Source: Nesterenkonia alkaliphila
GTDB lineage: Bacteria > Actinomycetota > Actinomycetes > Actinomycetales > Micrococcaceae
NCBI RefSeq assembly: GCF_009758175.1
Contig: NZ_WRPM01000069.1
Span: 1 to 60,124 of the forward strand
Direction: 5' to 3'
DNA length: 60,124 nucleotides
The position numbers and the translations under genes were made by a program. Of this stretch, positions 23,188 through 37,485 are shown piece after piece. The notes under the pieces are model-generated. The model was not told the DNA's origin and did not search any database. It saw only the letters and a program-made list of their open reading frames with translations. Every line of letters begins with the position of its first letter. Position 1 is the stretch's first letter.

Positions 23188-23222
23188 GCTTTACCGCCGC
23201 TTTACACAAGGGCGTGCACACT
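23188..23222 (+). promoter_or_regulatory. SARP-type direct repeat and -10, site A
   Basis: GCTTTAC (23188-23194), 4 bp, GCTTTAC (23199-23205), 11 bp, CACACT (23217-23222). The two heptamers are identical and 11 bp apart. There is no usable -35 hexamer at 17 bp, as expected for an activator-dependent promoter. It drives the lipoprotein gene starting at 23275, 52 nt further on. Confidence 0.7.
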
Positions 23223-23274
23223 GACGCTCAACGTTGCCGCAGTCCGCGGCGGCACTGCTGACCGGGAGAGACAG

Positions 23275-23994
23275 TTGAAGAACCGACAAAGAATTGCAGG
23301 CGTGCTCGCACTGAGCCTGTTGGCTGCAGCCTGCGCGGGCGACGAGGGCACTGGCCCCGAAGCCGCCGAACCGGCACTGGTTGAGGAGGCCGGAGCGAAC
23401 AACGGTGATACCGACGACCAGGAATCGGAAGACGCTCCGGAGCCGGAGCCAGCAGCTCCGGAAGAGGAGGATGAGGAAGCCAGCAACGCGGCCGACGCGC
23501 CGCAGCCTGCCACGGACCCATTGGACACCCTGTTCGCCGACTCTGTGCATAACGGAATCGCCTCAGCATCCCCGAGCTCCGCGTACATCGAGGTGGACGG
23601 GCAGCGCTTTGAGTTCGGTGACGTCAGCTGCAGCATCGTCGACGAACCAGACCAACAGCACTTCGCGGTCACCGCGGTCGAGGAGGCCACAGGTCATCTT
23701 ATGTACTTCAGTCGGTCCATCGGGGAGAACATCGGTTTCAATTGGGAGGATGAGCATGTCCAGCTGTCACTGCTGACCACACCTGGCGACGAGGGTGAGC
23801 TTGATCAGTACAGTAACTCGATGGCGCAGCATGACCGCGAACGCGGTGCAGCTCCGGAATGGTTCCACGGTTCCGGCACATCGCCCCTGATCAGGGTGGT
23901 GGGCAGTGAGGCCACAGCATCCGGAGTGTTGACCGGAATCCCATTTGCCGAGGCGCCCACTGAGGGTCCGTTCATCGCCGCCGTCGCATGCTGA
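23275..23994 (+). CDS. lipoprotein of the two-cysteine cluster family, member 1
   Basis: A lipoprotein of about 239 residues with signal KNRQRIAGVLALSLLAAAC; the lipobox Cys begins the mature part. An acidic spacer of about 60 residues (Glu/Asp/Pro/Ala) leads to a beta-rich domain with exactly two Cys: one at DVSCSIV and one as the final residue (IAAVAC). The three lipoproteins that follow share this plan. The TTG at 23275 is the start, with GGGAGAG in front; the frame is open upstream but overlaps bioQ. No function is known; the fold plan recalls mycobacterial LpqH. It probably forms an operon with the next gene (23 bp gap). Confidence 0.8.
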   Translation: MKNRQRIAGVLALSLLAAACAGDEGTGPEAAEPALVEEAGANNGDTDDQESEDAPEPEPAAPEEEDEEASNAADAPQPATDPLDTLFADSVHNGIASASPSSAYIEVDGQRFEFGDVSCSIVDEPDQQHFAVTAVEEATGHLMYFSRSIGENIGFNWEDEHVQLSLLTTPGDEGELDQYSNSMAQHDRERGAAPEWFHGSGTSPLIRVVGSEATASGVLTGIPFAEAPTEGPFIAAVAC

Positions 23995-24017
23995 TCCGCG
24001 CCCCGAAAGGACACACC

Positions 24018-24641
24018 ATGAAACTGATCACCACTAACGCCTGGGCGCTCTCCGCAGCCCTGATCCTGACCAGCTGCTCGACCTCGGGAGATACCGGCGG
24101 AGCCGAGCCTGGAAACGCCACGTCTGCGACCGTCCAACCGGAGCAGGTGAACGACTTCGCTGCCTCCGGAGGAGACACTGACAGTGAAGTTGACGAGCCC
24201 GAGCAGCCTCCGGCGGCAGAGACCGACACCGCCGAGGACTCGGCGGAAGAGCCTGAGGCGGTGAGCTCCGACGAAGCGCTCGGGACGGTGCGGATCAACG
24301 ACTCCATCACCTACACCATTACGCAGCTGCGCAAATGCGAACCCTATGACGATGAGTTCATCGAGCGCGAGCTGGAGTTACAGGGACTCGGTGAGCATGA
24401 CGGCGAACGCGTACAGGTCGATGTGTATATCGAGACAATCGCCGGCGCCCCGTTCCATGATGTCTCCTGGGCCGGCCCGGAGGGCGTCTTCGGCAGCGAC
24501 GGTGAGGCGAACATCACCTGGGGCGCCGATGAGTCCAGCGTACTGGGATCAGCCACTCTGGTTGACGCATGGACCCAGGAGGAGCAGCTCCAGCTCGACT
24601 TCGAACTAGGCGTGCCCGCCGAGACAGCCACCTGCCGCTGA
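24018..24641 (+). CDS. lipoprotein of the two-cysteine cluster family, member 2
   Basis: A lipoprotein of about 207 residues: signal ending LILTSCST, an acidic and Ser/Pro-rich spacer (about 30-90), then a beta-rich domain with one Cys early (LRKCEPYD) and one at the penultimate position (ETATCR). It contains a TTA codon at 24378. The stretch AGGACACACCATGAA around the start is repeated exactly at the start of the lipoprotein gene at 32326. It has no SARP-type site of its own and is probably read through from site A. Function unknown. Confidence 0.8.
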   Translation: MKLITTNAWALSAALILTSCSTSGDTGGAEPGNATSATVQPEQVNDFAASGGDTDSEVDEPEQPPAAETDTAEDSAEEPEAVSSDEALGTVRINDSITYTITQLRKCEPYDDEFIERELELQGLGEHDGERVQVDVYIETIAGAPFHDVSWAGPEGVFGSDGEANITWGADESSVLGSATLVDAWTQEEQLQLDFELGVPAETATCR

Positions 24642-24654
24642 TGACGGTGCGACC

Positions 24655-24689
24655 GTTTTACGCGCGCTTTAGGAGCCGCATTTCAAACT
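24655..24689 (+). promoter_or_regulatory. SARP-type direct repeat and -10, site B
   Basis: GTTTTAC (24655-24661), 4 bp, GCTTTAG (24666-24672), 11 bp, CAAACT (24684-24689). Same geometry as site A. The lipoprotein gene begins at 24745. Confidence 0.7.
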
Positions 24690-24744
24690 GAGGGGACACC
24701 GGGCCGGAGGGAGCTCTGGCATTCACGATGAAGAGGAAAAACTG

Positions 24745-25320
24745 ATGATATACCGACTTCCAGCTGCCATTGGCGGACTCACCCTAAGCCTGACGCTTGC
24801 TGCCTGCAACAGTTCTGAGGACGAAACCAACCATAACGACGACGTTCCAGGCAACGCAGACAGCAATAACAATGAGGACGCCGAGGAGCAGGACGGCGGC
24901 ACCGGGGCCGAGCCCGCCGGGGAATCCGAGAGTCACGGCGAGGCGACCTGGATGGGCGAGGAGCTCAACTTCACGCGATCCGGCTGTGGCACTGGAGATC
25001 CTGAGCCAGACGTGCGGTGGGTCCGTGCGCTCGGAGACGACGTGACTCTCAACGTACTCCTCGGGTTCGACCCGGATGCCAGCGATGACAACAACGTGGT
25101 CCTCGCAACCGATGATGTCGAGGTAGTACTCGACCTCCCGGGGGAGATCGGCACGACTGACTATGAGCTCTACCGAGGCAGCACCGAACTCGGCACCGGC
25201 GTTAGTGGCGATGCCAACTCCGTCTCAGGCAGCCTCCACCTCGATCTCGACAGTGCCGTCAGCCAGGGCGACGACATCAACCCCGACGGTGGCGAGCTGA
25301 CCTTCGACCTCACCTGTTGA
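24745..25320 (+). CDS. lipoprotein of the two-cysteine cluster family, member 3
   Basis: A 191-residue lipoprotein: signal ending LTLAAC, a highly acidic Asn/Asp/Glu spacer (about 24-60), then a domain starting GEATWMGEEL with a Cys in SGCGTGDPEPD and a terminal Cys (ELTFDLTC). It is clearly paralogous to the next gene: the GEATWMGEEL block, CGTG.PEPD, FD.DASD..NVVLA.DDV and the C-terminal GSLHLD...F.LTC align without large gaps. The upstream regulatory sequence and leader are duplicated along with the gene. The ribosome-binding site is AAGAGGAAAA. Confidence 0.82.
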   Translation: MIYRLPAAIGGLTLSLTLAACNSSEDETNHNDDVPGNADSNNNEDAEEQDGGTGAEPAGESESHGEATWMGEELNFTRSGCGTGDPEPDVRWVRALGDDVTLNVLLGFDPDASDDNNVVLATDDVEVVLDLPGEIGTTDYELYRGSTELGTGVSGDANSVSGSLHLDLDSAVSQGDDINPDGGELTFDLTC

Positions 25321-25351
25321 GCAGCCAGAGGGTAACCCGACAGTACACGCA

Positions 25352-25386
25352 GTTTTACACGTGCTTTACGGGGTGCGCTCCAGACT
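25352..25386 (+). promoter_or_regulatory. SARP-type direct repeat and -10, site C
   Basis: GTTTTAC (25352-25358), 4 bp, GCTTTAC (25363-25369), 11 bp, CAGACT (25381-25386). The bases after the -10 (CTGAGGGGGCACCG) are nearly those after site B, showing that the promoter was duplicated with the gene. Confidence 0.7.
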
Positions 25387-25442
25387 GAGGGGGCACCGCG
25401 TCGGAGTGCGACTCCGGCTCACCAGTTGAGGAGGAAAGACTC

Positions 25443-26027
25443 ATGATGCACCGAATCGGCGCAGCAGTCGGCGTGCTCGCCCTGGGCCTGACGCTCGCTG
25501 CCTGCGACACTTCCGAGGACGACACCAGCAACGACGACGACGCTCCAGTCGAAGCAGAGGGCAGCAACAGTAACAACCAGGACGACGTTGAGGAACAGGA
25601 CGCAGACACCGTGGACGAGCCCGCCGAAGAAGCCGAGAGTCACGGCGAGGCGACCTGGATGGGCGAGGAGCTCAGCCTCGAGTGGGTCAGCTGCGGCACC
25701 GGACGCCCGGAACCAGACATCAGGCAGATCCGAGCCGGCGGGGAGGATTTCGATCTCACCGTTCAGCTCGTTTTCGATCGTGATGCCAGCGACGAGGACA
25801 ATGTGGTCCTTGCCAGCGACGACGTGGGGGTCGAGATCTTCTTCCACGGCGAGGGCGGAACCATCGGCGACGGCGAAGGCTACCAGGGCAGTACCGCGTT
25901 CGGCGCTGAAGCCGACGGTGATGCCGATGCCGTCTCCGGCAGCCTCCACCTGGATCCCGACAGTGTCAGCCGCGCTGACGAGGTCAACCCCGGAGGCGGC
26001 CAGGTGACCTTCGCCCTCACCTGTTGA
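25443..26027 (+). CDS. lipoprotein of the two-cysteine cluster family, member 4
   Basis: A 194-residue tandem paralogue of the preceding lipoprotein: signal ending LTLAACDTS, an acidic spacer rich in Asp/Glu/Asn (about 24-65), then the GEATWMGEEL domain with Cys in SCGTGRPEPD and a terminal Cys (VTFALTC). The two non-lipobox Cys probably form one disulfide closing the domain. The ribosome-binding site GAGGAGGAAAG is strong. It ends 8 bp before the vWF-D/LCCL gene, so both are probably read from site C. Confidence 0.82.
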   Translation: MMHRIGAAVGVLALGLTLAACDTSEDDTSNDDDAPVEAEGSNSNNQDDVEEQDADTVDEPAEEAESHGEATWMGEELSLEWVSCGTGRPEPDIRQIRAGGEDFDLTVQLVFDRDASDEDNVVLASDDVGVEIFFHGEGGTIGDGEGYQGSTAFGAEADGDADAVSGSLHLDPDSVSRADEVNPGGGQVTFALTC

Positions 26028-26035
26028 GCAGCCCG

Positions 26036-28255
26036 ATGGGAACCCGAAAGTACTGGTCGATCCTGCTGGTCGCGGCACTGATTCTGGTCAGCTGCGGCGG
26101 CCCTGAGCCGGATGCTGAGCCGCCTCTGCCTGCACCGGGCGCCTCTGAGGAGGAGGCTGAGCATCAGCCCGCTGAAGAAACCGAGGACGACGCCGTTGAG
26201 GAAGAGCCTGAGGCGAAAGAAGAAGCGGACACGGTCTCCACTGTTTCTGGCAGTGCTCAGCACGTTCAGGACCTCTGGCTGTTCCAAGAGATTACCGTGG
26301 TCGGCGCCGAAGACACCGGGACCATAGACGATGAGATCTTCGCCTGGCTAGCCTCTGAGGCCGAAGAGACCGTAGAACTGCCGGGCGGCGCCAGCTTCCA
26401 CGTAGTTGAGGCCCTGGATGCCCAAATCCTGGCTCCGGACGAGGTCCCCCGCGAGGATGTGGAGGTCATTGCCGGCTGGGTGGAATTCGAGGATGCACAG
26501 GCACTCGCTGTGCTCGGCACTGTCCATGAGGGTGCCGAGCATATTGGCCACCAGGACCATCTGGACCTGGACCTGACCTCGGTCGAAGGCATCCGGGCCG
26601 GCGATGTGATCAGCTACCACCTGGCGTTCCTGCAGAGCCTCCCGGCGAAAGAACCTGATGACGAGGCCGACCTCAGCGGCCTGGAGATGCTCAGCCACCG
26701 GCTTCAGGCCGAACGATATCTCTACGCCGGCTATCGTGACGACGACGGCGAGATCCAGCCCGGCACCTTCAGCGATCAGCTGGCCGCCGTCGTGTCGGGC
26801 TCCGACCGGTCGCGACTGCCGGCGAAGTCCCACGACATGATCGAAGGCATGCAGGATGCGGTGAGCGACTGCTCACCGATTCAATGCATTGTCGACTGGT
26901 TCAGGAACTTCGGACCAGGCGGGGGCGGCGGATCCAGCTGGGACAATGCCCTGTGCAACGGCGATATCGGCACCAACTGCTCTCCGCCCCCGCCGCCGAA
27001 TCCGAGCTGCAGGTACCCGCCGTGCGGCAGCACCCACGGCGATCCCTACCTGGCCTCCTACCATGGCGGCACAGTCCAGTTTCACCTGGTCGGAGAGTTC
27101 GTCCTGACCTCCGGTGACGATCTGGAGGTTCAGGTGCGGATGGCACCGGCCTATCTGGACGGCCTCGCCTTCAACACCGGTGTGGCCATCGAGTCCGAGG
27201 GCCGCCGGGTGACCATCGCCTTCGAGAACGGCGAAGCCGTCTCCCGGGTCGACGGCGAGCCTGTTGCCTCAGCTGCCCTGCACTCCGCACTGGAGGCGGC
27301 AGGCTGGCAGGCCTCGGTGATCGACGACACCTACCTGCAGGTCATCACCGATCAAGGACATGCCGTGTCAGTGACACTGCGCAATCGCTCCGACCACCAA
27401 TACCTCGATGTCTATGTCGACCTCGCGGATGAGCTGCCGGGATTCGTGGGCCTGCTGGGCGGCGCCCACCCCGATGAGCCCAGGTGGATGAGCCGTGACG
27501 GTGAAGAGTTCGGCCTGAGGCAGGTCGCCAACCGAACCACCAGATACCAGGAGTTCGGCGAGACCTGGCGGATCACCGAGGATGAGTCGCTCTTCGACTA
27601 CCCCGAGGGCGAGTCCACTGCCACCTACACCGATCTGAGCTTCCCTCCGAGCAACAGTGTCGAGGCCGAGGACCTCGACCGAGAGGACCCGGAGGTCGCC
27701 CATGCCGAGGCGGTCTGCCGCGTCGCAGGCATCGAGGCGGAGCCGAACCTCACCTACTGCATCCTGGACTACTGGGCCACCGGCGATATCTCCGTGGTCC
27801 TGTCTGCGCAGACGGCCGACCGCGTACGGCAGGTCCGTGAGGGCGAGGTGGTGGACGGTGCGGAGTTCGCTCCCTGGTCCGCTTGGGAACATGATGCCCT
27901 GCCGGATGGCGCGATCGAGGCCACCTGGAACACCCCCGTCGACAGCATTCGGGACCAGTATGGGCTCGAGGCAGGAGACCGGTTCGAGGTCACGTGCCCG
28001 CCCGAAGCCGAGGGCGAAGGCCGCACCAATACCCGGATCTGGGGCACTAACATCTACTGGTCCCGCTCCCCGGTCTGCGCCGCGGCGGTTCATGCCGGGC
28101 TGGCCACCCTGGAGGAAGGCGGAACCTTCGAAGTGGAGCTGCTCGACAACATCGCTCATCGAGACATCGAGGTGGAGTCTCGCAACGGCATCGACCCACG
28201 GCAGTGGGCACGATCGGCAAGCGGATTCCAGTTCACAACACACAACAATTCCTGA
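26036..28255 (+). CDS. lipoprotein with vWF type D and LCCL domains
   Basis: A lipoprotein of about 739 residues. Order: lipoprotein signal ending LILVSCGG; acidic spacer (about 20-65); an uncharacterised region (about 80-290); a Gly-run and Pro-run linker containing several Cys (about 280-330); a von Willebrand factor type D-like domain (about 330-480: THGDPYLASYHGGTVQFHLV, GEFVLTSGDDLEVQVRM, DVYVDLADELPGFVGLLGG); then an LCCL domain (about 645-725: FEVTCPP, IWGTNIYW, VCAAAVHAG, ESRNGIDPRQW). Both domains are known mainly from extracellular animal proteins and occur sporadically in bacteria. ATG 26036 is used; its weak ribosome-binding site suggests coupling to the previous gene. Function unknown; an adhesive or matrix role is inference. 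Confidence 0.8.
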   Translation: MGTRKYWSILLVAALILVSCGGPEPDAEPPLPAPGASEEEAEHQPAEETEDDAVEEEPEAKEEADTVSTVSGSAQHVQDLWLFQEITVVGAEDTGTIDDEIFAWLASEAEETVELPGGASFHVVEALDAQILAPDEVPREDVEVIAGWVEFEDAQALAVLGTVHEGAEHIGHQDHLDLDLTSVEGIRAGDVISYHLAFLQSLPAKEPDDEADLSGLEMLSHRLQAERYLYAGYRDDDGEIQPGTFSDQLAAVVSGSDRSRLPAKSHDMIEGMQDAVSDCSPIQCIVDWFRNFGPGGGGGSSWDNALCNGDIGTNCSPPPPPNPSCRYPPCGSTHGDPYLASYHGGTVQFHLVGEFVLTSGDDLEVQVRMAPAYLDGLAFNTGVAIESEGRRVTIAFENGEAVSRVDGEPVASAALHSALEAAGWQASVIDDTYLQVITDQGHAVSVTLRNRSDHQYLDVYVDLADELPGFVGLLGGAHPDEPRWMSRDGEEFGLRQVANRTTRYQEFGETWRITEDESLFDYPEGESTATYTDLSFPPSNSVEAEDLDREDPEVAHAEAVCRVAGIEAEPNLTYCILDYWATGDISVVLSAQTADRVRQVREGEVVDGAEFAPWSAWEHDALPDGAIEATWNTPVDSIRDQYGLEAGDRFEVTCPPEAEGEGRTNTRIWGTNIYWSRSPVCAAAVHAGLATLEEGGTFEVELLDNIAHRDIEVESRNGIDPRQWARSASGFQFTTHNNS

Positions 28256-28262
28256 AAATTTG

Positions 28263-28291
28263 CTGACACTGGGCTGGGCGCGGCGTAGGCT
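28263..28291 (+). promoter_or_regulatory. promoter of the SARP gene
   Basis: CTGACA (28263-28268), a 17-bp spacer and TAGGCT (28286-28291), 9 nt before the ATG. A near-leaderless transcript is expected. No GCTTTAC repeat is present here, so the regulator does not appear to control itself through that motif. Confidence 0.6.
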
Positions 28292-28300
28292 GGTGCCACT

Positions 28301-31267
28301 ATGACCACCACCGAGGCTGCGCTCGAGACTGCCCGAGGGATCTCCAGGATCACGATCCTGGGGACGGTTTCGGTGGAATCGGCCGGGGGTACGGAGAGCG
28401 TCCGGGGCGAGCGGCGCGAGGCAGCACTGATCGCCCTGGCGCTGAACGCCGGTCAGCCGGTGCCCCGCGAGCGCCTGGTCGATGCCGTCTGGGGTGATGA
28501 GAGCCCGCCGACGGCGGCTACCTCTCTACGCGTGCTAATCTCCCAGCTGCGCAAGACGCTCGGCGAGGACCTGCTGGAAACCACCGAGACCGGATACCGA
28601 CTTGCTGTGGACCCCAAGCAGGTGGACGTCTGCCAGTTCCGTACCCTGGCCAAGCAGGGGCACGAACTCCTCCGCCAGCGACGCCACTCCGCCGCTCACC
28701 AAACCCTGCAGGAGGCCATGGCCCTCTGGCGCGGCCCCCAGTGGCCCGATCACGGCATCCTCCAGCTAGAAAGCTCGACGCTGGCCACCACCAAGGAGGA
28801 GGCAGAGCTGCACCTGGCCGAGGCCCGCCTGCACGCCGCGGGACTGCCTCCAGACATCACTGCCCTGGAGGAGCTTGTCCAGCGTTATCCCTACCGGGAA
28901 CGGGCCTGGGAGCTGCTGATGACCGCCCTGTACTGGGCTGGCCGTCAGGCCGAGGCGCTCGAGGCCTTTCAGCGTGCCAAAATCCTCCTGCTCGACGAAC
29001 TCGGACTGGACCCCAGCCCCTCCCTGGTGGAGACCGAGACCGCCATTCTCAACCAGGACCCCCGGCTTGCACCGCCCTCACCGGCCACAGTGCACCTGCC
29101 CAGCTACACCACGGAGTTTATCGGCCGCGCCGAGCAGGTCACTGAGCTCGCCGAGTTGGTCTCCACCTGCCGCCTGATCACTGTGACGGGCCTGGGGGGC
29201 TCAGGCAAGACCCGCCTGGCGGTGCAGGCAGCCTGGGCCGCGGCCGAGGACTTCTCCGACGGGGTGACCTTCGTAGCATTGGGGCCAGTTGAGGACGACG
29301 CCGTGGTCCCGGCCAAGATCGCCCAGGCAGCAGACAGCCGGGCTGAGACCGTCGAGAGCCTGGCCGCGGAAATCGGCAGTTCACGCATGCTGATCCTGCT
29401 GGACAATGCGGAGCACTTGGTAGCCGCCGTGGCTGAAGCGGCCGAAACGCTGATCACCCAGTGCCCGAACCTCACCCTGTTGGTGACCAGCCGCACCGCC
29501 CTGCAGCTGCAGGCTGAGCGCAGCTGGCCAATTCCGCTGCTGGAACTGCCGGAGGAGGACACTCCTGAGGCCTGTCAACGCAGTGAGTCAGCCCAGCTGT
29601 TCCTCACCCGCGCGAAGACCGTCACTGATCACCTGCAGCTTGACCACAGCACCGCCCCGCAGATCGCTGAGGCCTGCCGGCTGCTGGCCGGCCATCCCCT
29701 GGGCATCGAACTCGCAGCGGCCAAGTGTTCGATATTCTCGGTGGCCGACATAGTTGAGCAGCTGCGCCGAGGCACCTCGATTGAAGGGAAGGAACATGAC
29801 CGCCCCAAGCAGCATCGATCGATTGAGATCGCCCTGCGGTGGACCATCGACACGCTCCCAGCCATCCAGCAGACGCTGTTACTCAGGCTGGCGGCTTTTC
29901 ACGGCGCTTTCGACTTCACCGGAGTGCAGAACGTCTGCCTCGGTGGTCCGCTCACCGAGCAGAACCTGGCCGAACATCTGGAGGGACTGGTAGCCAGCTC
30001 CCTGATACAGATAGACCAGCGGAACGGGACCTATTGGTACCGGCTGCTGGCCCCAGTACATGCGGTGGCGCGCGAGCTCCTGGACCAGTCCAAAGAAGCA
30101 CAGGTAGTGCGGCAGCGGTACCACGACGCCGTTCAGACGCTGATCAAACGCACCAGTGAAGGAAGCCAGAGCACCCAGGCACCCGCCCTTTTCGCCCGAC
30201 TTGACGCCTACGCCCACGACGTCCGTGGAGTATTGGAGAAGACCGAACGGGAGAACCCCCACGCGGCAGCCCAGATGTGCACTCAGCTGCGACACTACTG
30301 GACGTCTCGACGTACCCACCGTGAAGTAATTCGACGCCTTGAGCGACTCCTGGAGCGGCAGGACGGGATCAGCACAGAGACTTTGGCCGACCTCTTCGAG
30401 ACCACCGCATGGTTCTACCTCGACGGCGGAGGCGGTACGCGGGAGGCCAGAGAGGCCGCTGCTAAATGTATCGAATTGCGTGAGAAGGCCGGGGACGCTG
30501 TCGGCATCGCGACCGCCAAGCTGCTATTGGCCGCCGCAGTATCCCACGGCGGAGATCACGGCCACGCTTACGCGATCTTTGCCGAAGCCCAGCATACATT
30601 CGAGCAGCTCGACCATGACTCTGGAATGCTCCGCGCCGGGGTCAACGCAGGGATCGCCGCACAGAAGCTGGGCAGGCTGGAGGACGCGGACCGGCACCTT
30701 CTGGTAGCCCTTGGGGCTACTCGTCGCACCGGAGCTAGAAGCTTTGAGGCGCTGGTTCTGGAGCGGCGCTCCTATGTGGCGACCGACGGCGGGGATGCCT
30801 CTGCCGCCGCGGCCCTGGTCCGCACTGCGCACGAGATCCGGCTGGAACTCGGCGAACCCTTGGAGCTGTGCCGCAGCTACTGGAGCCTGGGCATCAGCGC
30901 CCTGGTGGCCAAGGACTTCACAGCCGCCGGCGAGCACCTGCTCCAGTCCATGAGACTCGCTCAGGAACACCGGTTCACTGACGCGTGGTGGATCCCCGGG
31001 CTGCTCGAACTGGCCGCTGTGCTGCTAGTGGAGCAGGGCAGCCTGCTGGCAGCCACCCGACTTATCGGTGCCGCAGATGCCCTGCGCAGCCGGTCCGGCC
31101 TGGGCCACAACCAGCAGAGCGTGCCGGGCCTGGCTGCCACGATAGAATCGCTTCAGCAGACCCTCGGAGGCGCGACCTACGAGGCCGAGTTCAGCCACGG
31201 TGCGGCGCAGACCGGTCCTGTGGCGCTGCGGCGCGCCCAGGAGGCCTGCGCACACCTGTCACGCTGA
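28301..31267 (+). CDS. AfsR/SARP-type transcriptional activator
   Basis: A 988-residue regulator close to Streptomyces AfsR in length and layout: an OmpR-like winged helix (about 15-100, with PVPRERLVDAVWGDESPP and LRVLISQLRKTLG), a bacterial transcriptional activation domain (about 105-245), a STAND/NB-ARC ATPase (P-loop GLGGSGKTRLA near 296, Walker B MLILLDNAEHL, sensor LLVTSRTALQL), and C-terminal TPR-like helical repeats (about 580-980). SARP winged helices bind heptameric direct repeats with an 11-bp period; five such sites lie in front of the surrounding lipoprotein and membrane genes. There is one TTA codon at 29879. No AfsK-like kinase is nearby. It ends 3 bp before the convergent lipoprotein gene. 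The domain call is firm; the target assignment is inference. Confidence 0.9.
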   Translation: MTTTEAALETARGISRITILGTVSVESAGGTESVRGERREAALIALALNAGQPVPRERLVDAVWGDESPPTAATSLRVLISQLRKTLGEDLLETTETGYRLAVDPKQVDVCQFRTLAKQGHELLRQRRHSAAHQTLQEAMALWRGPQWPDHGILQLESSTLATTKEEAELHLAEARLHAAGLPPDITALEELVQRYPYRERAWELLMTALYWAGRQAEALEAFQRAKILLLDELGLDPSPSLVETETAILNQDPRLAPPSPATVHLPSYTTEFIGRAEQVTELAELVSTCRLITVTGLGGSGKTRLAVQAAWAAAEDFSDGVTFVALGPVEDDAVVPAKIAQAADSRAETVESLAAEIGSSRMLILLDNAEHLVAAVAEAAETLITQCPNLTLLVTSRTALQLQAERSWPIPLLELPEEDTPEACQRSESAQLFLTRAKTVTDHLQLDHSTAPQIAEACRLLAGHPLGIELAAAKCSIFSVADIVEQLRRGTSIEGKEHDRPKQHRSIEIALRWTIDTLPAIQQTLLLRLAAFHGAFDFTGVQNVCLGGPLTEQNLAEHLEGLVASSLIQIDQRNGTYWYRLLAPVHAVARELLDQSKEAQVVRQRYHDAVQTLIKRTSEGSQSTQAPALFARLDAYAHDVRGVLEKTERENPHAAAQMCTQLRHYWTSRRTHREVIRRLERLLERQDGISTETLADLFETTAWFYLDGGGGTREAREAAAKCIELREKAGDAVGIATAKLLLAAAVSHGGDHGHAYAIFAEAQHTFEQLDHDSGMLRAGVNAGIAAQKLGRLEDADRHLLVALGATRRTGARSFEALVLERRSYVATDGGDASAAAALVRTAHEIRLELGEPLELCRSYWSLGISALVAKDFTAAGEHLLQSMRLAQEHRFTDAWWIPGLLELAAVLLVEQGSLLAATRLIGAADALRSRSGLGHNQQSVPGLAATIESLQQTLGGATYEAEFSHGAAQTGPVALRRAQEACAHLSR

Positions 31268-31270
31268 GCC

Positions 31271-32326
31271 TCACCACTCGGAGAGGTCGAAGTCCAGCTC
31301 GCTGGGGTCCGGTATGGAGAAGGTCCACTCACCGGTGGCCTCCCCGGCCCGGGAGCGGGTGTGCGTCATGGTGTAGTCACCGACCACCTCGGCGTCGACG
31401 GTGAATCCGGTGAGGATCTCGCTAACCGTCTCCCCGCCACGCGCACAGCGCTCGGAGACTCCGTCGTCAAGCACCGAGTCGCCGTTAGGCTGCTCCAGGC
31501 TCCAGCCGCCCGAGCTGCGAGTGCTGCAGGACTGCGCATCGCTCCGGTTCTGTACGGTGTACTCCAAGAGGATATGTGCCTGCCCGTCGGGAAGCGGTGT
31601 GAGGTCCGGGCCGCCCCAGCGGACTTCAGCATAGCTGATGGTCACCAGATCATCGACGTCCTCATCCTGTAGCTGGGCCTCTGCTCCGATCAGGTCGGAG
31701 ATCTCGATCGGCACCCGGGAGATGGTGTCCCCTTCAGGACCGAGCGCAATCTCGGCAGCGCTGCTGCCGGCGTTGCCGATCAGCAGCACCGCCTCGTCCA
31801 GCGTGAACCCCTCTGCGTCTGCGGCCGGGACCGTGATCTCGATCTGCCCGCTGTTCGAAGCGTTGGCCGGGATCTGGTTGAAATCCGTGGCGAAGCCGGG
31901 AGCAGCATAGGTGTCGGCCCCCGCCTGCCAGCGGAGCTCGTAGCCGGATACAACCGTTCGGTTGGAGTTCGAGGGATTGGTGAAGCGCATATCGGCCTCG
32001 ACCACCAGACTGCCGTCCTCCTGCGGAATCGTCCTGACCGTCTCCACCTCATAGTGCACCCCGGCCTGGTGCCCGGTGAGCCCGATGACGCGTTCCTCAG
32101 CAGCAGCCAACTCGACCTCTGCGGCGTCGTCCTCTGTCTGGCTCGGCTCCGCATCTGCGGATTCCTGCTGCGCGGCGATCTCCTCATTGACCTCCTCCAG
32201 TCCGGTCTCCACAGCGTCGCCGAACTCCTCAAGCTGCTCGCCGATCTCCTGGGCCTGGCTGCAGCCGCTGATCATAAGCAGTGTGGCCGTGCCGGCCAAC
32301 AGGGCCGCAGTCGATGTCCTCTTCAT
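31271..32326 (-). CDS. lipoprotein with acidic spacer, SARP-site controlled
   Basis: A lipoprotein of about 351 residues. The signal peptide ends LLMISGCSQ, followed by a Glu-rich helical or coiled-coil-like spacer (about 24-75, EQLEEFGDAVETGLEEVNEE) and a beta-rich region with alternating strands (TGHQAGVHYEVETVRTIPQE, VVEADMRFTNPS) that recalls DUF4352-like Ig domains found in actinobacterial lipoproteins. Two further Cys (AQSCSTR, SERCARG) could pair. The ATG at 32326 has AGGA 8 nt upstream in the AGGACACACCATGAA block shared with the gene at 24018. Site E lies 50 nt upstream. It is divergent from the polytopic membrane protein. Confidence 0.8.
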   Translation of the reverse strand: MKRTSTAALLAGTATLLMISGCSQAQEIGEQLEEFGDAVETGLEEVNEEIAAQQESADAEPSQTEDDAAEVELAAAEERVIGLTGHQAGVHYEVETVRTIPQEDGSLVVEADMRFTNPSNSNRTVVSGYELRWQAGADTYAAPGFATDFNQIPANASNSGQIEITVPAADAEGFTLDEAVLLIGNAGSSAAEIALGPEGDTISRVPIEISDLIGAEAQLQDEDVDDLVTISYAEVRWGGPDLTPLPDGQAHILLEYTVQNRSDAQSCSTRSSGGWSLEQPNGDSVLDDGVSERCARGGETVSEILTGFTVDAEVVGDYTMTHTRSRAGEATGEWTFSIPDPSELDFDLSEW

Positions 32327-32376
32327 GGTGTGTCCTCTCATGCTCAAGCGGGAATACCGGCCCCGCAATAGGTCTC

Positions 32377-32411
32377 ATCCTCACCTGAGACCCGTAATGC
32401 GCCCGTAAAGC
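32377..32411 (-). promoter_or_regulatory. SARP-type direct repeat and -10, site E
   Basis: On the minus strand: GCTTTAC (32411-32405), 4 bp, GCATTAC (32400-32394), 11 bp, GAGGAT (32382-32377). It serves the lipoprotein gene at 32326 and is back to back with site D, 13 bp away. Confidence 0.68.
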
Positions 32412-32424
32412 GCAGGCACCCGGC

Positions 32425-32459
32425 GCATTACACCGGATTTACACCCCTGTACCTACCGT
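32425..32459 (+). promoter_or_regulatory. SARP-type direct repeat and -10, site D
   Basis: GCATTAC (32425-32431), 4 bp, GATTTAC (32436-32442), 11 bp, TACCGT (32454-32459). It serves the membrane protein gene at 32495. Of the five sites, this and site E depart most from GCTTTAC. Confidence 0.65.
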
Positions 32460-32494
32460 TGGGGCACACACCCAAAGAGAGAGGACCCACGGCC

Positions 32495-33472
32495 ATGAAT
32501 TTCTCCTACGCCAGAACTTTGAAGCTGCTCCTACGCACCATGCCGTTCCTGATCTTCCGGCTTCTGGTCTACCTGGGCATTGCGGTCGGCTGGATCATCA
32601 TTACCGCCATTGGGGCCGGCATCGGAGCCATGGTCGGAGCAGTCGGCGGATCCACCGCCGCCGGCGCCACCATCGGCGGCTTCATCGGGTTCGTCGCCTG
32701 CATTGGCATCTTAGCTTTCCTGCGCCGCTACCTGCTCTACATGGTCAAATCCGCGCATATTGCCGTACTGGTGGAGGCCATCGACGGCCGCACACTCCCG
32801 GCGGGGCAGGGTCAGGTCAAGTACGGACAACAGGCGGTGAAGGAGCGCTTTGTTGAGATGTCGGTGCTCTTCGGAGTCGATGCCGTCATCAAGGGGATCC
32901 TCAAAGCGTTCAACCGGCTGGTGGTCCGGGTGGCGGACTTCCTGCCCATACCAGGGGCAGCCAAGGTTGCCAAGATCGGCAACGCCGTGGTCAACAGCTC
33001 GCTGACCTACGTGGATGAGACCATCCTGGGCCACAATCTGCGCGTACGCTCCACCAACCCGTGGGAGACCAGCCGGCAGGGCCTGATCCTGTATGCGCAG
33101 AACTACAAGCAGTTCCTGAAGAACGCGGTGAAGCTCACTCTGGGCGTATGGGGGCTGACTCTGCTGATCTTCTTAGCACTGGTCGGACCGGTCGCCCTGG
33201 TGGTGTGGCTGTTGCCGGTCACCGGTGGCCTGGTGCCCCTGCTGCTCACGCTGTGCCTTACCTGGGCGGTCAAACTGGCCGTGGTGGAGCCCTTCGCCGT
33301 CACAGCCATGCTGCAGGTTTGGGCCAAGGTGACCGCAGGTCAGGTGCCCAACCCGGAATGGGAGAGCAAGCTGCAGCAGGCCAGCAGGAAGTTCGGTGAG
33401 ATGGGGTCCAAAGCCCGGGATTGGGGACGGCGACACCAAGAGGGCACCGCACAGACGCCCAGTGCCCCCTGA
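32495..33472 (+). CDS. polytopic membrane protein of unknown function
   Basis: About 325 residues. Hydrophobic segments: FLIFRLLVYLGIAVGWIIIT, a Gly/Ala-rich pair (AGIGAMVGAVGG, GGFIGFVACIGILAFL), then after a soluble part of about 110 residues two more (LTLGVWGLTLLIFLALVG, VPLLLTLCLTWAVKLAVVE). The soluble part contains SAHIAVLVEAI and FVEMSVLFGVDAVIKG, which look like amphipathic or re-entrant helices. The C terminus is polar and basic. Two TTA codons (32711 and 33173). The ATG at 32495 follows AGAGAGAGGA. Site D makes it part of the SARP-linked set. I do not recognise a family; a scaffold or transport role for the lipoproteins is only a guess. Confidence 0.8.
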   Translation: MNFSYARTLKLLLRTMPFLIFRLLVYLGIAVGWIIITAIGAGIGAMVGAVGGSTAAGATIGGFIGFVACIGILAFLRRYLLYMVKSAHIAVLVEAIDGRTLPAGQGQVKYGQQAVKERFVEMSVLFGVDAVIKGILKAFNRLVVRVADFLPIPGAAKVAKIGNAVVNSSLTYVDETILGHNLRVRSTNPWETSRQGLILYAQNYKQFLKNAVKLTLGVWGLTLLIFLALVGPVALVVWLLPVTGGLVPLLLTLCLTWAVKLAVVEPFAVTAMLQVWAKVTAGQVPNPEWESKLQQASRKFGEMGSKARDWGRRHQEGTAQTPSAP

Positions 33473-33591: not shown

Positions 33592-34968
33592 CTACTTGGT
33601 GGCCTTCTTCTTGCCGCCACCGGCGGCTTCGAAGAACGCCTTGGTGGGGTTCTCCAAATCGCGCAGCGGGGTGACGTCACGGCCGAAGACCATCTCGTTG
33701 ACCCAGCCGCCGGCCACCCGGGCCTTGCGTTCGATGGTGGGGATAGCCATACCGTGGTACCCGCGGTGGGCGGCCCAGGCCAGGACGCCCTTGAGCTTGA
33801 CGCCCATCGGGTTGCCCACGCCCTTGTAGAGGCCCAGTCCCGCCACAGCTCCGAGAGACTCATGCTTGTACTCGGCAACCTCAGCGGTGCCGTAGCGGAC
33901 CGCAAACAGGTTCTTGGCCAGCACCTTGGCCTGCCGGGAGGCGTGCTGGGCGTTGGGCACGCAGAACCCGCCGGGACCGGCTCCGGTGAGGTCCGGGATT
34001 GCGGCGATATCACCGGCCGTCCAAGCACCTTCGATCACGTCGCCGTCCTCATTCAGTATCTGCAGGGTCGCGGAGCCGGTGATCCGACCGCGCTCATCCA
34101 CCGGGAAGGAAGAGCTGCGGGCCACTGCATTGGCGGCCACACCGGCGGTCCATACCAGGGTGTCGGAGCCGAACTTGTCCACCTCGGACTTATCTGCCAT
34201 CGAGATCAGGGTCAGCTCTCCGTCCACTGCAGAGCTCAGCGAGGTGTTGAGCAGGACCTCTATGCCGCGGCCGCGCAGGTGCTCGACCACACCGACTGCC
34301 TGGTCCTCGGAGACCTCGGGCATGATCCGGCCCATCGCCTCCACCAGCACGATGCGCACATCAGACTGGCTGAGCCGGGGGTTCTCGTTGACTGCGGCGC
34401 GGATGATGTCTTCCATCTCCGCGATGCACTCGATGCCGGCGAATCCGCCGCCGACCACGGTGAAAGTCAGCGCACGGCGCTTGGCAGCCTCATCGGTCAT
34501 TACAGAGGCCGCTTCGAGGCGCTCCAGGATATGGTTGCGCAACCCCAGGGCCTCCTCGATGGTCTTCAGACCGATGCCGTTCTCGGCAAGTCCCTCGATG
34601 GGGAAGGTGCGGGTGGTGGCGCCGGCGGCCATGACGATGTCCTGGTAGGGGATCTCCACGGATTCGCCCTCGCCGAGTCCCACTACGGCGATCTTCGCTT
34701 GATGGTCCACGGAGGTCACCTTGCCGGTGATCACCTCAGTGTCCTTCAGGTGCCGCCGGTGCGGCACCACGGCGTGGCGGGCTTCGATGTGCCCGCCGAC
34801 CACCTCGGGGAGGAAGGGCTGGTAGGTCATATAGGGCAGCGGGTCCACCAGGGTGACTATGCCGCCGGCAGCCTTGATCTTCTTCTGCAGCTGCTGGGCC
34901 ACAGTGAGGCCGACGTAGCCGCCGCCGACGATCAGAACACGGGGTTTCTCTGAGAGCTTGAGTGCCAT
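33592..34968 (-). CDS. ndh: type II NADH dehydrogenase
   Basis: A protein of about 458 residues with two Rossmann folds: the FAD-binding VLIVGGGYVGLTVAQQL at the N terminus and the NADH-binding TFTVVGGGFAGIE near 170. TAGDIAAIPD is the third FAD contact typical of this family. NDH-2 passes electrons from NADH to quinone without pumping protons. The C-terminal amphipathic stretch and Lys-rich tail suit peripheral membrane attachment. The ATG at 34968 is preferred for GGATGGAG before it; another in-frame ATG is three codons upstream. It ends an apparent divIC-DUF501-ppx-protease-ndh run. Confidence 0.92.
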   Translation of the reverse strand: MALKLSEKPRVLIVGGGYVGLTVAQQLQKKIKAAGGIVTLVDPLPYMTYQPFLPEVVGGHIEARHAVVPHRRHLKDTEVITGKVTSVDHQAKIAVVGLGEGESVEIPYQDIVMAAGATTRTFPIEGLAENGIGLKTIEEALGLRNHILERLEAASVMTDEAAKRRALTFTVVGGGFAGIECIAEMEDIIRAAVNENPRLSQSDVRIVLVEAMGRIMPEVSEDQAVGVVEHLRGRGIEVLLNTSLSSAVDGELTLISMADKSEVDKFGSDTLVWTAGVAANAVARSSSFPVDERGRITGSATLQILNEDGDVIEGAWTAGDIAAIPDLTGAGPGGFCVPNAQHASRQAKVLAKNLFAVRYGTAEVAEYKHESLGAVAGLGLYKGVGNPMGVKLKGVLAWAAHRGYHGMAIPTIERKARVAGGWVNEMVFGRDVTPLRDLENPTKAFFEAAGGGKKKATK

Positions 34969-34993
34969 GGGCTCCATCCTATCGGGGTTTGGG

Positions 34994-36490
34994 TCAGGTT
35001 CGGCTGCGCCGGGAGATCAGATGAACTGCGGCCAGAGTCATCAGGATGACTACCACCAGGCCGCCGGCCGCCACGGTGACCGGACCAGCCCAGTCCTGGG
35101 CTGAGCGAACCTCTGCAGCCCGGGGCAGCTCACGCGGCTCTCCCTCGGGTCCTGCGATCACCTCCGCGTCCTCGGGAATATCGGCACCATTGCCGTTCAC
35201 CCCATCATCGGCGCGCCGGTGCACCCGGATCCAGTCGGCCAGGGTGTCATAGTCATCGGCATTGAATTCCGGGAGGTTGCCGTTGACCGCCTCGGCCACA
35301 TTGATCACCCCGTGCCCGTACTCGGGGTCAACCCCCTCGGCCCCCTCGGAGTCAGCAGAGACCAACAGCCGGTGCTTGACCTCCTGAGCCGAAAGCTCCG
35401 GATGGGCGGCCATCACCAGTGCCGCGGCACCGGCCACAAGGGGGGTGGCCCCTGAGGTGCCGGTCCAGGTGGCGTACCCCTCCCCCGGCAATGCTCCGAC
35501 CAGCGGCTCGGAGGCGGCGGCGATGTCCACTGCAATGCCCTGGGAGGAGGATTCCTCGCTGATATTGCGGTTCTCGTCCACCCCGGCCACGGTGAGCACT
35601 CCTGGGATGGTGGCCGGTGCGCCCACGGACCAGTGCCCGGCTGCACGGTTGCCGGCGGCGGCGACCACCAGCACATCGTTCTCCTCGGCGTGCAGGAAGG
35701 CCTCATCCCAGCTCTCCGGCCAGTCCTGCACCCCGGAGCCGATGGACATGTTGATGATGTCGGCCCCGTTGTCCACAGCCCAGACCACGGCCTGGGCGAT
35801 CTGCTCCTCAGTGCCGGGGCCGTTGGGATTGGGATCCTCCAGGACCAGTGACGCGGAGATGATATTGGCCTCCGGGGCCACCCCTACTACGCCTACCGGC
35901 CGCTGGTTCCAGGGCACATCTGGTGCCTCGGGCGCCAGATCCTCGTCATCGAGCTCGAGCTCCTCCTCCATGCCGGGGAAGGTGCGCTCCTCGTAGAATT
36001 CGTCGAGCAGCTCCTCGTCGATGACCTCTTCCCAGTCCTCACCGTGGATCTCCTCCAGCTCGGCCAGGAACTGGTCGAACCATTCGTCCCATTCCTCCTG
36101 GGACATATCCTCGAGACTCTCCGGTTCGATCACCTCCGGTTCGGGCAGCTCCTCGCCCCGGCCCACCGCCAGGGAGGCAACCAGAGTTCCGTGCTCGGTG
36201 CTGGTCTGCTGCACCGGCCCGCCGGAGCCGTCGCCGCCGCCGGAGAAATCGGTGCCTCCGGTGAGCGCGCCGTTGAGCCCCGGGTGAGACCCGTCAACAC
36301 CGGTGTCGATGATCGCGATGGTCACCCCCTCGCCCCGGGTGGTGTCCCAGGCCTCGGTGACCCCGTAGTCCTCCAGCCAGTACTGCTGCTCACGGACCTC
36401 CACGGCATGGGCCGGTGCGGACATCAGCGGGGTCAGTACCAGTGCGGCTGCAGCACTGATGGCCCATACACTACGACGCCGCATCCTCAC
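34994..36490 (-). CDS. membrane-anchored subtilisin-like serine protease
   Basis: A 498-residue S8 peptidase: signal peptide ending SAPAHA, catalytic Asp in IAIIDTGVD, His in TEHGTLVAS, oxyanion Asn in VVAAAGNRA and Ser in TGTSGATPLVAGAAAL. A C-terminal transmembrane helix (about 468-490) and an Arg-rich tail anchor it, as in mycosins of type VII secretion systems, though no ESX genes are nearby. Between the His and Asn motifs is an extra acidic segment of about 90 residues rich in Glu, Asp and Trp (about 110-200) that is not part of the subtilisin core. The start overlaps the ppx stop by 4 bp. Confidence 0.9.
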   Translation of the reverse strand: MRMRRRSVWAISAAAALVLTPLMSAPAHAVEVREQQYWLEDYGVTEAWDTTRGEGVTIAIIDTGVDGSHPGLNGALTGGTDFSGGGDGSGGPVQQTSTEHGTLVASLAVGRGEELPEPEVIEPESLEDMSQEEWDEWFDQFLAELEEIHGEDWEEVIDEELLDEFYEERTFPGMEEELELDDEDLAPEAPDVPWNQRPVGVVGVAPEANIISASLVLEDPNPNGPGTEEQIAQAVVWAVDNGADIINMSIGSGVQDWPESWDEAFLHAEENDVLVVAAAGNRAAGHWSVGAPATIPGVLTVAGVDENRNISEESSSQGIAVDIAAASEPLVGALPGEGYATWTGTSGATPLVAGAAALVMAAHPELSAQEVKHRLLVSADSEGAEGVDPEYGHGVINVAEAVNGNLPEFNADDYDTLADWIRVHRRADDGVNGNGADIPEDAEVIAGPEGEPRELPRAAEVRSAQDWAGPVTVAAGGLVVVILMTLAAVHLISRRSRT

Positions 36491-37485
36491 TTCTCGTTCC
36501 CCATACTCTCCAGCTGCTCCTGTGCCACCGACATCGCCAATCCGTCCAGGATGTCGTGCTCCGAGGCGATGGCGGTGGCCACGCGGTTCTCTGTGATCTT
36601 GTTGATGTAGTCCAGAATGGTCCCCCAGATCAGTGCTCCGGCGCCGATCACATCTACCCGTCCCGGATGCATGAACGGCATGGCTGCCCGCTGGGCGCGG
36701 GTGCTGTGCACCAGCTGGTCCACAGACTGGTGGACCGCATCCAGGGAAAGTTCGGCACCGTTGATGGTCTCGGCGTCGTAATCCTCAAGTTTCAGCGCAT
36801 GGGCGGTGACAGTGGTGACCGTGCCTGCCACTCCCACCACAGCCTCCGTCTCGTGCAGCGGCATCACCTCCGCCACATTCTCCAGGAAGCTGAGGGTTTC
36901 GAAGGCGGCCATAGAGCATTCGGTCTCCGTGGGGGGATCGCTGCGCATATGCCGTTCGGTGAACCGGACACAACCCATATCTGTGGAGATGGCGTGCTCG
37001 GCGCCGGCAGAGGTGCCCAGCACGAACTCGGTGGATCCCCCGCCCAGGTCCACCACCAGGACCTTGCGGGCCGCATCCCAGTTGAGCACGCTGGCCGCTC
37101 CGGCGAAGGAGAGCCCGGCCTCCTCGGAGCCGCGGATCACCTCGGGCTCCACACTCAGGCGGTCCTTGACCCCGGCGATGAACTCTTCCCGGTTGCTGAC
37201 ATCCCGGGAGGCCGAGGTTGCCACGAAACGCACAGCCTGCACCTGGTGGCGGCGGATGAGCTCGGCGTAGTCCTCCACCGCGGCGAAAGTGCGCTGCAGC
37301 GCCTGGGCGGAGAACTCCCCGGTGGTGTCCACACCTTCGCCCAGCCGCACCACAGTCATTCGGCGCACCACATCGGTGACCGAGCCGGTGCCGGGAAGGT
37401 CCACGTCTGCGATGAGCAGGCGGATCGAGTTGGTGCCGCAGTCGATGGCTGCCACCCGGAGTGGGGCCTGGGCGGATTCGGTCAT
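36487..37485 (-). CDS. ppx: Ppx/GppA family exopolyphosphatase
   Basis: A 332-residue member of the ASKHA superfamily. It shows the phosphate-binding DCGTNSIRLLIAD at the N terminus, GSEEAGLSFAGA, VVDLGGGSTEFVLG and a C-terminal GAGALIW. Such proteins hydrolyse polyphosphate and/or pppGpp. The short form, lacking the C-terminal HD-like region of E. coli Ppx, is normal in actinobacteria (Rv1026). It overlaps both neighbours by 4 bp and so is translationally coupled. Confidence 0.92.
   Translation of the reverse strand: MTESAQAPLRVAAIDCGTNSIRLLIADVDLPGTGSVTDVVRRMTVVRLGEGVDTTGEFSAQALQRTFAAVEDYAELIRRHQVQAVRFVATSASRDVSNREEFIAGVKDRLSVEPEVIRGSEEAGLSFAGAASVLNWDAARKVLVVDLGGGSTEFVLGTSAGAEHAISTDMGCVRFTERHMRSDPPTETECSMAAFETLSFLENVAEVMPLHETEAVVGVAGTVTTVTAHALKLEDYDAETINGAELSLDAVHQSVDQLVHSTRAQRAAMPFMHPGRVDVIGAGALIWGTILDYINKITENRVATAIASEHDILDGLAMSVAQEQLESMGNEK

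Follow-up and report, generated by a model that had tools for sequence, protein, structure and literature searches.

The lipoprotein locus and its promoter boxes

We analysed a 60,124-nucleotide stretch of DNA from Nesterenkonia alkaliphila (contig NZ_WRPM01000069.1, one contig of a 3.32-Mb genome), called the window below. Our subject is a locus at positions 23188-33472 in which an AfsR-like gene of the Streptomyces antibiotic regulatory protein (SARP) type stands among genes for exported proteins. The plus strand carries, in order, the lipoprotein genes lp1, lp2, lp3 and lp4, a gene for a lipoprotein with von Willebrand factor type D-like (vWD) and LCCL regions, and the SARP gene. On the minus strand, lp6 converges on the SARP gene, with 3 bp separating it from the SARP stop, and mem is divergent from lp6 (Table 1).

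An earlier reading made from the sequence only had described five promoters in this locus, each with two heptamers separated by 4 bp and, 11 bp further, a hexamer. All five 7-4-7-11-6 sites were recovered at the positions claimed, with exact spacing. Their mismatches in Table 1 are counted against GCTTTAC-N4-GCTTTAC. When up to three mismatches are allowed, the window contains just these five sites; shuffled sequences gave a mean of 0.91, and five were reached in 1 of 100 shuffles. Across the whole genome the same limit returned 54 matches vs. 82 for a reversed control, and matches with three mismatches are thus background. At a limit of two mismatches exactly the five window sites are left, the remaining 49 of the 54 having three. 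Boxes of this spacing are therefore restricted to the locus at that limit.

Because the GCTTTAC consensus had been drawn from the sites themselves, a motif-free test was also run, in which all 16,384 heptamers were scored at gaps of 0-11 on the five promoter strands. The optimum was GCTTTAC with a gap of 4, scoring 64/70 (300 shuffles: mean 51.0, maximum 55). The upstream regions of lp3 and lp4 align across nearly their whole length, and that of lp1 is partly alike. Since the lp3 region duplicates that of lp4, the test was repeated without it, and the score was 52/56 vs. a maximum of 44 in 300 shuffles. The boxes are not accompanied by a -35 element, as the sequence-only reading had also held: with TTGACA sought 15-20 bp away from each of the five hexamers, the best matches still have three to four mismatches.

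Table 1. Genes and promoter features of the lipoprotein locus (window coordinates).
Feature	Positions	Strand	Description
Box and -10 hexamer, lp1-lp2 promoter	23188..23222	+	GCTTTAC/GCTTTAC, 0 mismatches; CACACT at 11 bp
lp1	23275..23994	+	TTG start; lipobox Cys and two further Cys, from translation; no Pfam family over cut-off
lp2	24018..24641	+	Lipoprotein with two further Cys (translation); lacks a box; no Pfam family over cut-off
Box and -10 hexamer, lp3 promoter	24655..24689	+	GTTTTAC/GCTTTAG, 2 mismatches; CAAACT at 11 bp
lp3	24745..25320	+	Lipoprotein; lp4 paralogue, 58% identical (BLASTP)
Box and -10 hexamer, promoter of lp4 and probably of the vWD/LCCL gene	25352..25386	+	GTTTTAC/GCTTTAC, 1 mismatch; CAGACT at 11 bp
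lp4	25443..26027	+	Lipoprotein; lp3 paralogue, 58% identical (BLASTP)
vWD/LCCL lipoprotein	26036..28255	+	Directly behind lp4; LCCL 4.9e-12; vWF-D-like stretch via G105 homologue
SARP-gene promoter-like sequence	28263..28291	+	CTGACA-N17-TAGGCT, 9 bp before ATG
AfsR-type SARP	28301..31267	+	988 aa; winged helix, BTAD, P-loop and putative ATPase region, weak C-terminal TPR signal
lp6	31271..32326	-	Lipoprotein; helix, then beta-rich region; low-confidence model, pLDDT 61
Box and -10 hexamer, lp6 promoter	32377..32411	-	GCTTTAC/GCATTAC, 1 mismatch; GAGGAT at 11 bp
Box and -10 hexamer, mem promoter	32425..32459	+	GCATTAC/GATTTAC, 2 mismatches; TACCGT at 11 bp
mem	32495..33472	+	Polytopic membrane protein; divergent from lp6

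Conservation in Nesterenkonia

Some SARP match is present in 11 of 30 genomes of the genus, the source genome included. Among the 30, N. muleiensis has the sole close orthologue (65% over residues 2-987), and genome G010 the sole distant one matched over nearly its full length (36%, residues 16-958). A profile search of genome contigs with a two-sequence SARP alignment returned 34 stretches with one relative, that of N. muleiensis. This species keeps the SARP, lp6 (59%) and mem (88%) in the same arrangement (BLASTP).

In N. muleiensis, lp6 and mem share a promoter region in which each strand carries one site with a single mismatch; among 20,000 shuffles of this region, not one had such a site on either strand. 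The counterpart of the lp6 box (L084:8731, plus strand) lies 62 bp from the start codon vs. 50 in the window, and that of the mem box (L084:8727, minus strand, with TACGGT) 34 bp vs. 35. The earlier suggestion to look for the box near SARP homologues in related genomes is thus answered positively, beside the 65% SARP of N. muleiensis, and the lp6/mem box pair is conserved together with the regulator. Over the seven sites of the two species, columns G1, T4, T5, A6, C7, T15, T16, A17, A31 and T35 are invariant. NANNNT is found 11 bp downstream in 7/7 sites, and at other offsets from 0 to 39 in at most 2/7. The proposal that the hexamers are -10 elements gains from this exact placement, but the hexamers are weak and agree in NANNNT only. 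A strict pattern, GYWTTAC-N4-GYWTTAC-N11-NANNNT, has four sites in the 30 genomes (three of the five in the window and one of the two in N. muleiensis) vs. none for the reversed control. These are confined to the two loci with a close SARP orthologue, and the other 28 genomes have none.

The G010 locus is more distant. Here too an lp6 homologue (32%, BLASTP) and the SARP gene converge, the homologue lying behind a DUF4870-type membrane gene. The promoter region of the latter contains GTTTCAC-N4-GCTTAAT-N10-TAGTCT, which is reached in 20 of 20,000 shuffles under criteria set after the sequence had been seen. Between TAGTCT and the start codon of this gene there is also a perfect inverted repeat, CTCAGAGTCAG...CTGACTCAGAG (L065:3803-3834). 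Its second arm extends to the presumed ribosome-binding site, and it may form a leader hairpin.

We also looked for the box elsewhere in the family, in 395 genomes and with a spacing of 10-12 bp. Three sites (in four rows) were found outside the two loci, and three in the reversed control, so a wider distribution was rejected. Two of the outside sites are in related long open reading frames and the third is in open frames on both strands; no relative of a window protein was found within about 1.5 kb either side of them.

The SARP regulator

The sequence-only reading had named a 988-residue AfsR-type SARP, and Pfam agrees: Trans_reg_C (3.8e-10) and BTAD (4e-28) are both over their cut-offs. The P-loop, GLGGSGKT, is visible in the sequence, with the STAND/AAA ATPase models matching below cut-off only, and the TPR signal is weak (TPR_12, E 0.59). 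The PDB matches are AfsR (8k60, 9e-31) and EmbR (2fez, 4.2e-27). Against the AfsR equivalog model NF053617 the protein scores 183.9 bits, below the NCBIfam cut-off of 1430. Judged by these matches, the SARP is AfsR-like and not AfsR itself. Besides the SARP gene, only one further BTAD gene was found in the genome (G000:C48:59-616), and a contig end apparently truncates it.

Twelve AfsR residues that contact DNA were taken from PMC10936776, and six are identical in the SARP (W64, P69, R77, S81, R84, K85). Four of the six residues in the AfsR set Q48, W74, P79, T88, R94 and K95 are identical (W64, P69, R84, K85), while Q48 is replaced by R38 and T88 by V78. At the positions of the base-reading AfsR residues T88 and R92, both the window SARP and its N. 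muleiensis orthologue have V78 and Q82, and the G010 protein has V and H. V78 and Q82 fit a changed target sequence, but are no proof of one.

The promoter-like sequence CTGACA-N17-TAGGCT is probably the SARP gene's own promoter and under no box. In N. muleiensis the upstream region contains CTGACA-N17-TAGAGT, much further from the start codon than in the window. Autoregulation through the box was considered and is unsupported: the best upstream box match has seven mismatches in the window (45 bp) and four in N. muleiensis (393 bp).

Proposed regulation and alternatives

AfsR is described as binding with two protomers to two 11-bp repeats that replace the -35 element, holding sigma region 4, and as activating in this way a promoter whose -35 is poor and whose -10, CACTGT, is suboptimal (PMC10936776). 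Direct repeats with an 11-bp period stand in the -35 place in 5/5 window sites and in 2/2 N. muleiensis sites. Because the boxes are in the corresponding place, without a -35, and before weak hexamers comparable with the afsS CACTGT, we infer the same mechanism here. Our preferred reading, with a probability of about 0.75, is that the locus is a compact, self-contained regulon in which the SARP activates the adjacent lipoprotein and membrane-protein genes, and few if any others, via the five boxes, probably by AfsR-like sigma adaptation. The SARP gene is probably expressed from a -35/-10 promoter of its own. Its product would form a side-by-side dimer on direct repeats of the type GNWTTAC-N4-GNWTTAC, which replace the -35. 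Sigma adaptation as by AfsR would then allow the housekeeping RNA polymerase to start at the weak -10 hexamers, which lie 11 bp further on. The predicted transcription units of the five promoters are lp1-lp2, lp3, lp4 with the vWD/LCCL gene, lp6 and mem, i.e., exported lipoproteins and a membrane protein, and the regulon would serve the cell envelope. ATP binding disinhibits AfsR (PMC10936776); by analogy the activity of the SARP may be set by its ATPase half, and this C-terminal half would probably respond to ATP and some signal.

The sequence-only reading had the SARP activate all of these genes. Support for a local SARP regulon is good, the boxes being unique to the locus, but two of the genes, lp2 and that for the vWD/LCCL protein, lack a box, and would be expressed from the boxes only by read-through from lp1 into lp2 and from lp4 into the vWD/LCCL gene.

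Several other points weigh against our reading, as do the likenesses to PHO boxes given below. A rule for SARPs places 8 bp between the 3′ repeat and the -10 (PMC10936776); here the distance is 11 bp from the heptamer as written and 7 bp from the end of the 11-bp unit, so that counting with heptamers does not give 8 bp. Only one of the five window hexamers (TACCGT) starts with T. With V78 and Q82 at the base-reading positions, the AfsR target sequence is not transferable to the SARP. Sequence comparison further indicates that lp3 and lp4 arose by duplication together with their promoters, and the five sites are not five independent events. Finally, N. muleiensis is without an intact lp1-lp4/vWD block, and the evidence for this part of the regulon comes from one genome.

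The boxes could instead belong to an OmpR/PhoB-family regulator such as PhoP, with the SARP as a neighbour or as a competing co-regulator, like AfsR and PhoP at afsS. PHO boxes, with GTTCACC in S. coelicolor, consist of two 11-nucleotide units in each of which seven bases are conserved and four less so (PMC4415409), and PhoP of M. tuberculosis binds 7-bp repeats with a 4-bp spacer (PMC4832192). That SARPs use heptamer repeats with an 11-bp period, as the earlier reading had it, holds for AfsR and PimR, but PHO boxes share the layout, which alone does not name a SARP. Possible binders are at hand: of 12 Trans_reg_C domains encoded in the genome, 10 belong to genes other than the two SARP genes. 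A gene for a Ppx/GppA phosphatase, a family with possible links to phosphate metabolism, is located 3 kb past mem (36487-37485), itself without a box. A PhoP regulon would however be expected genome- and genus-wide. No other site with at most two mismatches occurs in the genome, though the phosphate genes themselves were not looked up, and the strict pattern is missing from the other 28 genomes of the genus. We consider a PhoP-type owner of the boxes unlikely.

Control by the SARP could also run differently, the protein mainly repressing at the boxes, or only tuning transcription that another factor starts. The direction of control is unreadable from sequence and the hexamers are weak; still, the boxes occupy the -35 place with no other good -35 available, which is the layout of AfsR activation, and repression or tuning seems to us quite improbable. 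It is hard to credit that the repeats are merely inherited copies of one promoter, kept by descent and with no present regulatory role. The near-complete alignment of the lp3 and lp4 upstream regions, and the partial likeness of that of lp1, are what such copying would leave. The divergent lp6/mem boxes, however, stand on both strands and have counterparts in an N. muleiensis intergenic region that has otherwise diverged, and the heptamer cores and the hexamer A and T are invariant in all seven sites.

The exported proteins

The four two-cysteine lipoproteins of the sequence-only reading were confirmed in the translations: lp1-lp4 each have a lipobox cysteine and two further cysteines. No Pfam family was over cut-off in any of the four, and a search with lp4 matched only its own genome among the 30 of the genus. 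An LpqH-like fold for these proteins was considered because of their cysteine pattern. Pfam gave nothing over cut-off, a PDB profile search gave nothing useful, and the AlphaFold model is poor, with a pLDDT of 42; the fold is not claimed. For the vWF-D/LCCL lipoprotein, LCCL is matched directly, but Pfam does not match vWF-D in the window protein; the homologous stretch of a protein from G105, a genome of another genus of the family, matches VWD at 5.5e-11. In even draws of 149 genomes from the family, the vWD/LCCL protein has matches in two and lp6 in one, the source genome included in both counts. The VWD-domain protein of G105 (C25:7108-7875) is the sole other match of the former. The most sensible Foldseek match of lp6 is the B. 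subtilis lipoprotein YcdA (4r4g, E 5.2e-4, TM 0.26-0.28), which is too weak for a fold to be claimed.

Upstream of the N. muleiensis SARP gene, behind a gene of the enoyl-CoA hydratase family, there are fragments resembling the coding end of lp4 and the SARP promoter region of the window. The lp4-like gene-end remains (92 bp at 68%, and a 24-bp match at the stop end) lie at L084:12840-13260, between the enoyl-CoA-hydratase-family and SARP genes. Such remains point to a loss of the lipoprotein block in this species.

Lipoproteins as a general companion of AfsR-like genes in the genus were considered and rejected. Scanning 14 loci for a lipobox (13 loci of the genus and the vWD locus of G105) gave no lipoprotein cluster outside the N. 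muleiensis orthologue; the scan was not exhaustive, since three lipoproteins, one in G010 and lp1 and lp4 in the window, escaped its regular expression. Isolated lipoprotein-like ORFs were detected, and three of these make up a second lipoprotein family, with members 57-81% identical to each other and unrelated to the window lipoproteins. Its members come from three genomes of the genus, the source genome (contig C48) included, and each is at a distance of about 5-6 kb from another AfsR-like gene (L069:3932-4723, L071:5953-6849, L087:16201-16893). No GCTTTAC box with up to three mismatches was found at these three loci. Beyond mem in the window, genes for a Pyr_redox_2 oxidoreductase, a subtilase (Peptidase_S8, 9.1e-49) and the Ppx/GppA phosphatase lie in a row on the minus strand (33592-37485).

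The mem family beyond Nesterenkonia

No Pfam model is over cut-off in mem. Relatives were found in two of 295 family genomes and in 10 of 396 phylum genomes, the source genome included in both; three of the 10 are weak partial matches. On plasmids, 87 records have relatives, all below 60% identity and 54 covering at least 80%. Pseudosulfitobacter accounts for 62 of the 87, and the best relatives, at 40-44% identity, are alphaproteobacterial. One record is labelled Dysgonomonadaceae, with a length equal to that of a Martelella record. A plasmid search with lp6 gave no match, and one with the SARP gave 513 records, none covering 80% of the protein.

Four plasmid loci were inspected (L099-L102), with full-length relatives at about 42-45%. 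In three of them mem is accompanied by a same-strand gene for an exported VWA protein, with a gene for a helix-turn-helix or AraC regulator nearby; the fourth has no VWA gene, and its mem is beside a response regulator gene. In the actinobacterial genome G524 mem is directly behind a lipobox-bearing gene. The SARP has no match (E 1e-3) in the four plasmid loci or in six other actinobacterial mem loci, some of them short. Thus, as far as seen, the SARP is the local mem regulator only in Nesterenkonia.

We offer as a speculation, and an improbable one, that mem and its relatives form the core of a mobile envelope module across phyla, often with exported partners, which would be lipoproteins in Nesterenkonia and G524 and VWA proteins in alphaproteobacteria, and with an adjoining regulator. 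In Nesterenkonia, a STAND-type SARP sensing a surface or internal signal would turn on an entire lipoprotein coat encoded at a single locus. Counting against this, no lipoprotein or VWA-type exported partner was recognised at the other actinobacterial mem loci fetched besides G524.

Relation to known systems and significance

Local SARP regulons, 7-4-7 boxes (PimR, AfsR) and a SARP with envelope effects (EmbR) are already known. AfsR of Streptomyces coelicolor shares the winged helix and BTAD and probably the ATPase region, and its afs box has two 11-bp repeats where the -35 is missing, followed by a suboptimal -10 (PMC10936776). It is however a global regulator of afsS and antibiotics, whereas here the targets are adjacent exported-protein genes, the box is GCTTTAC-like and the base-reading positions hold V78 and Q82. 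For PimR and other cluster-situated SARP-LAL regulators the target is likewise local and the sites are heptameric direct repeats spaced by 4 bp, but their consensus is CGGCAAG and the target an antibiotic pathway (PMC5930380). The 7-4-7 PHO boxes of PhoP/PhoB (PMC4415409) serve a genome-wide phosphate regulon, unlike the single locus here. The SARP EmbR of Mycobacterium tuberculosis, also a PDB match, affects the cell envelope and does not belong to an antibiotic cluster; it differs in its FHA domain and broad regulon, and the word lipoprotein is absent from the main text of PMC9239209. The main text of a SARP review (PMC10972967) holds neither EmbR nor lipoprotein. No SARP with boxes confined to an exported-lipoprotein block was found in the open-access literature searched (SARP with lipoproteins; Nesterenkonia with SARP). 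The novelty claimed earlier for a SARP dedicated to envelope lipoproteins holds within that search, but EmbR precedes it as a SARP that affects the envelope.

SARPs have mostly been studied as switches of antibiotic clusters, and this locus ties an AfsR-like regulator to exported lipoproteins. It is a small, clean case, with one regulator, seven target genes, five boxes and a partial counterpart in a related species, and is suited to direct testing of the box, the spacing and the base-reading residues. It also points to an unnamed membrane-protein family that extends from Nesterenkonia to Roseibium plasmids. If the mobile module is real, AfsR-like STAND proteins would be dedicated switches for remodelling the cell surface.

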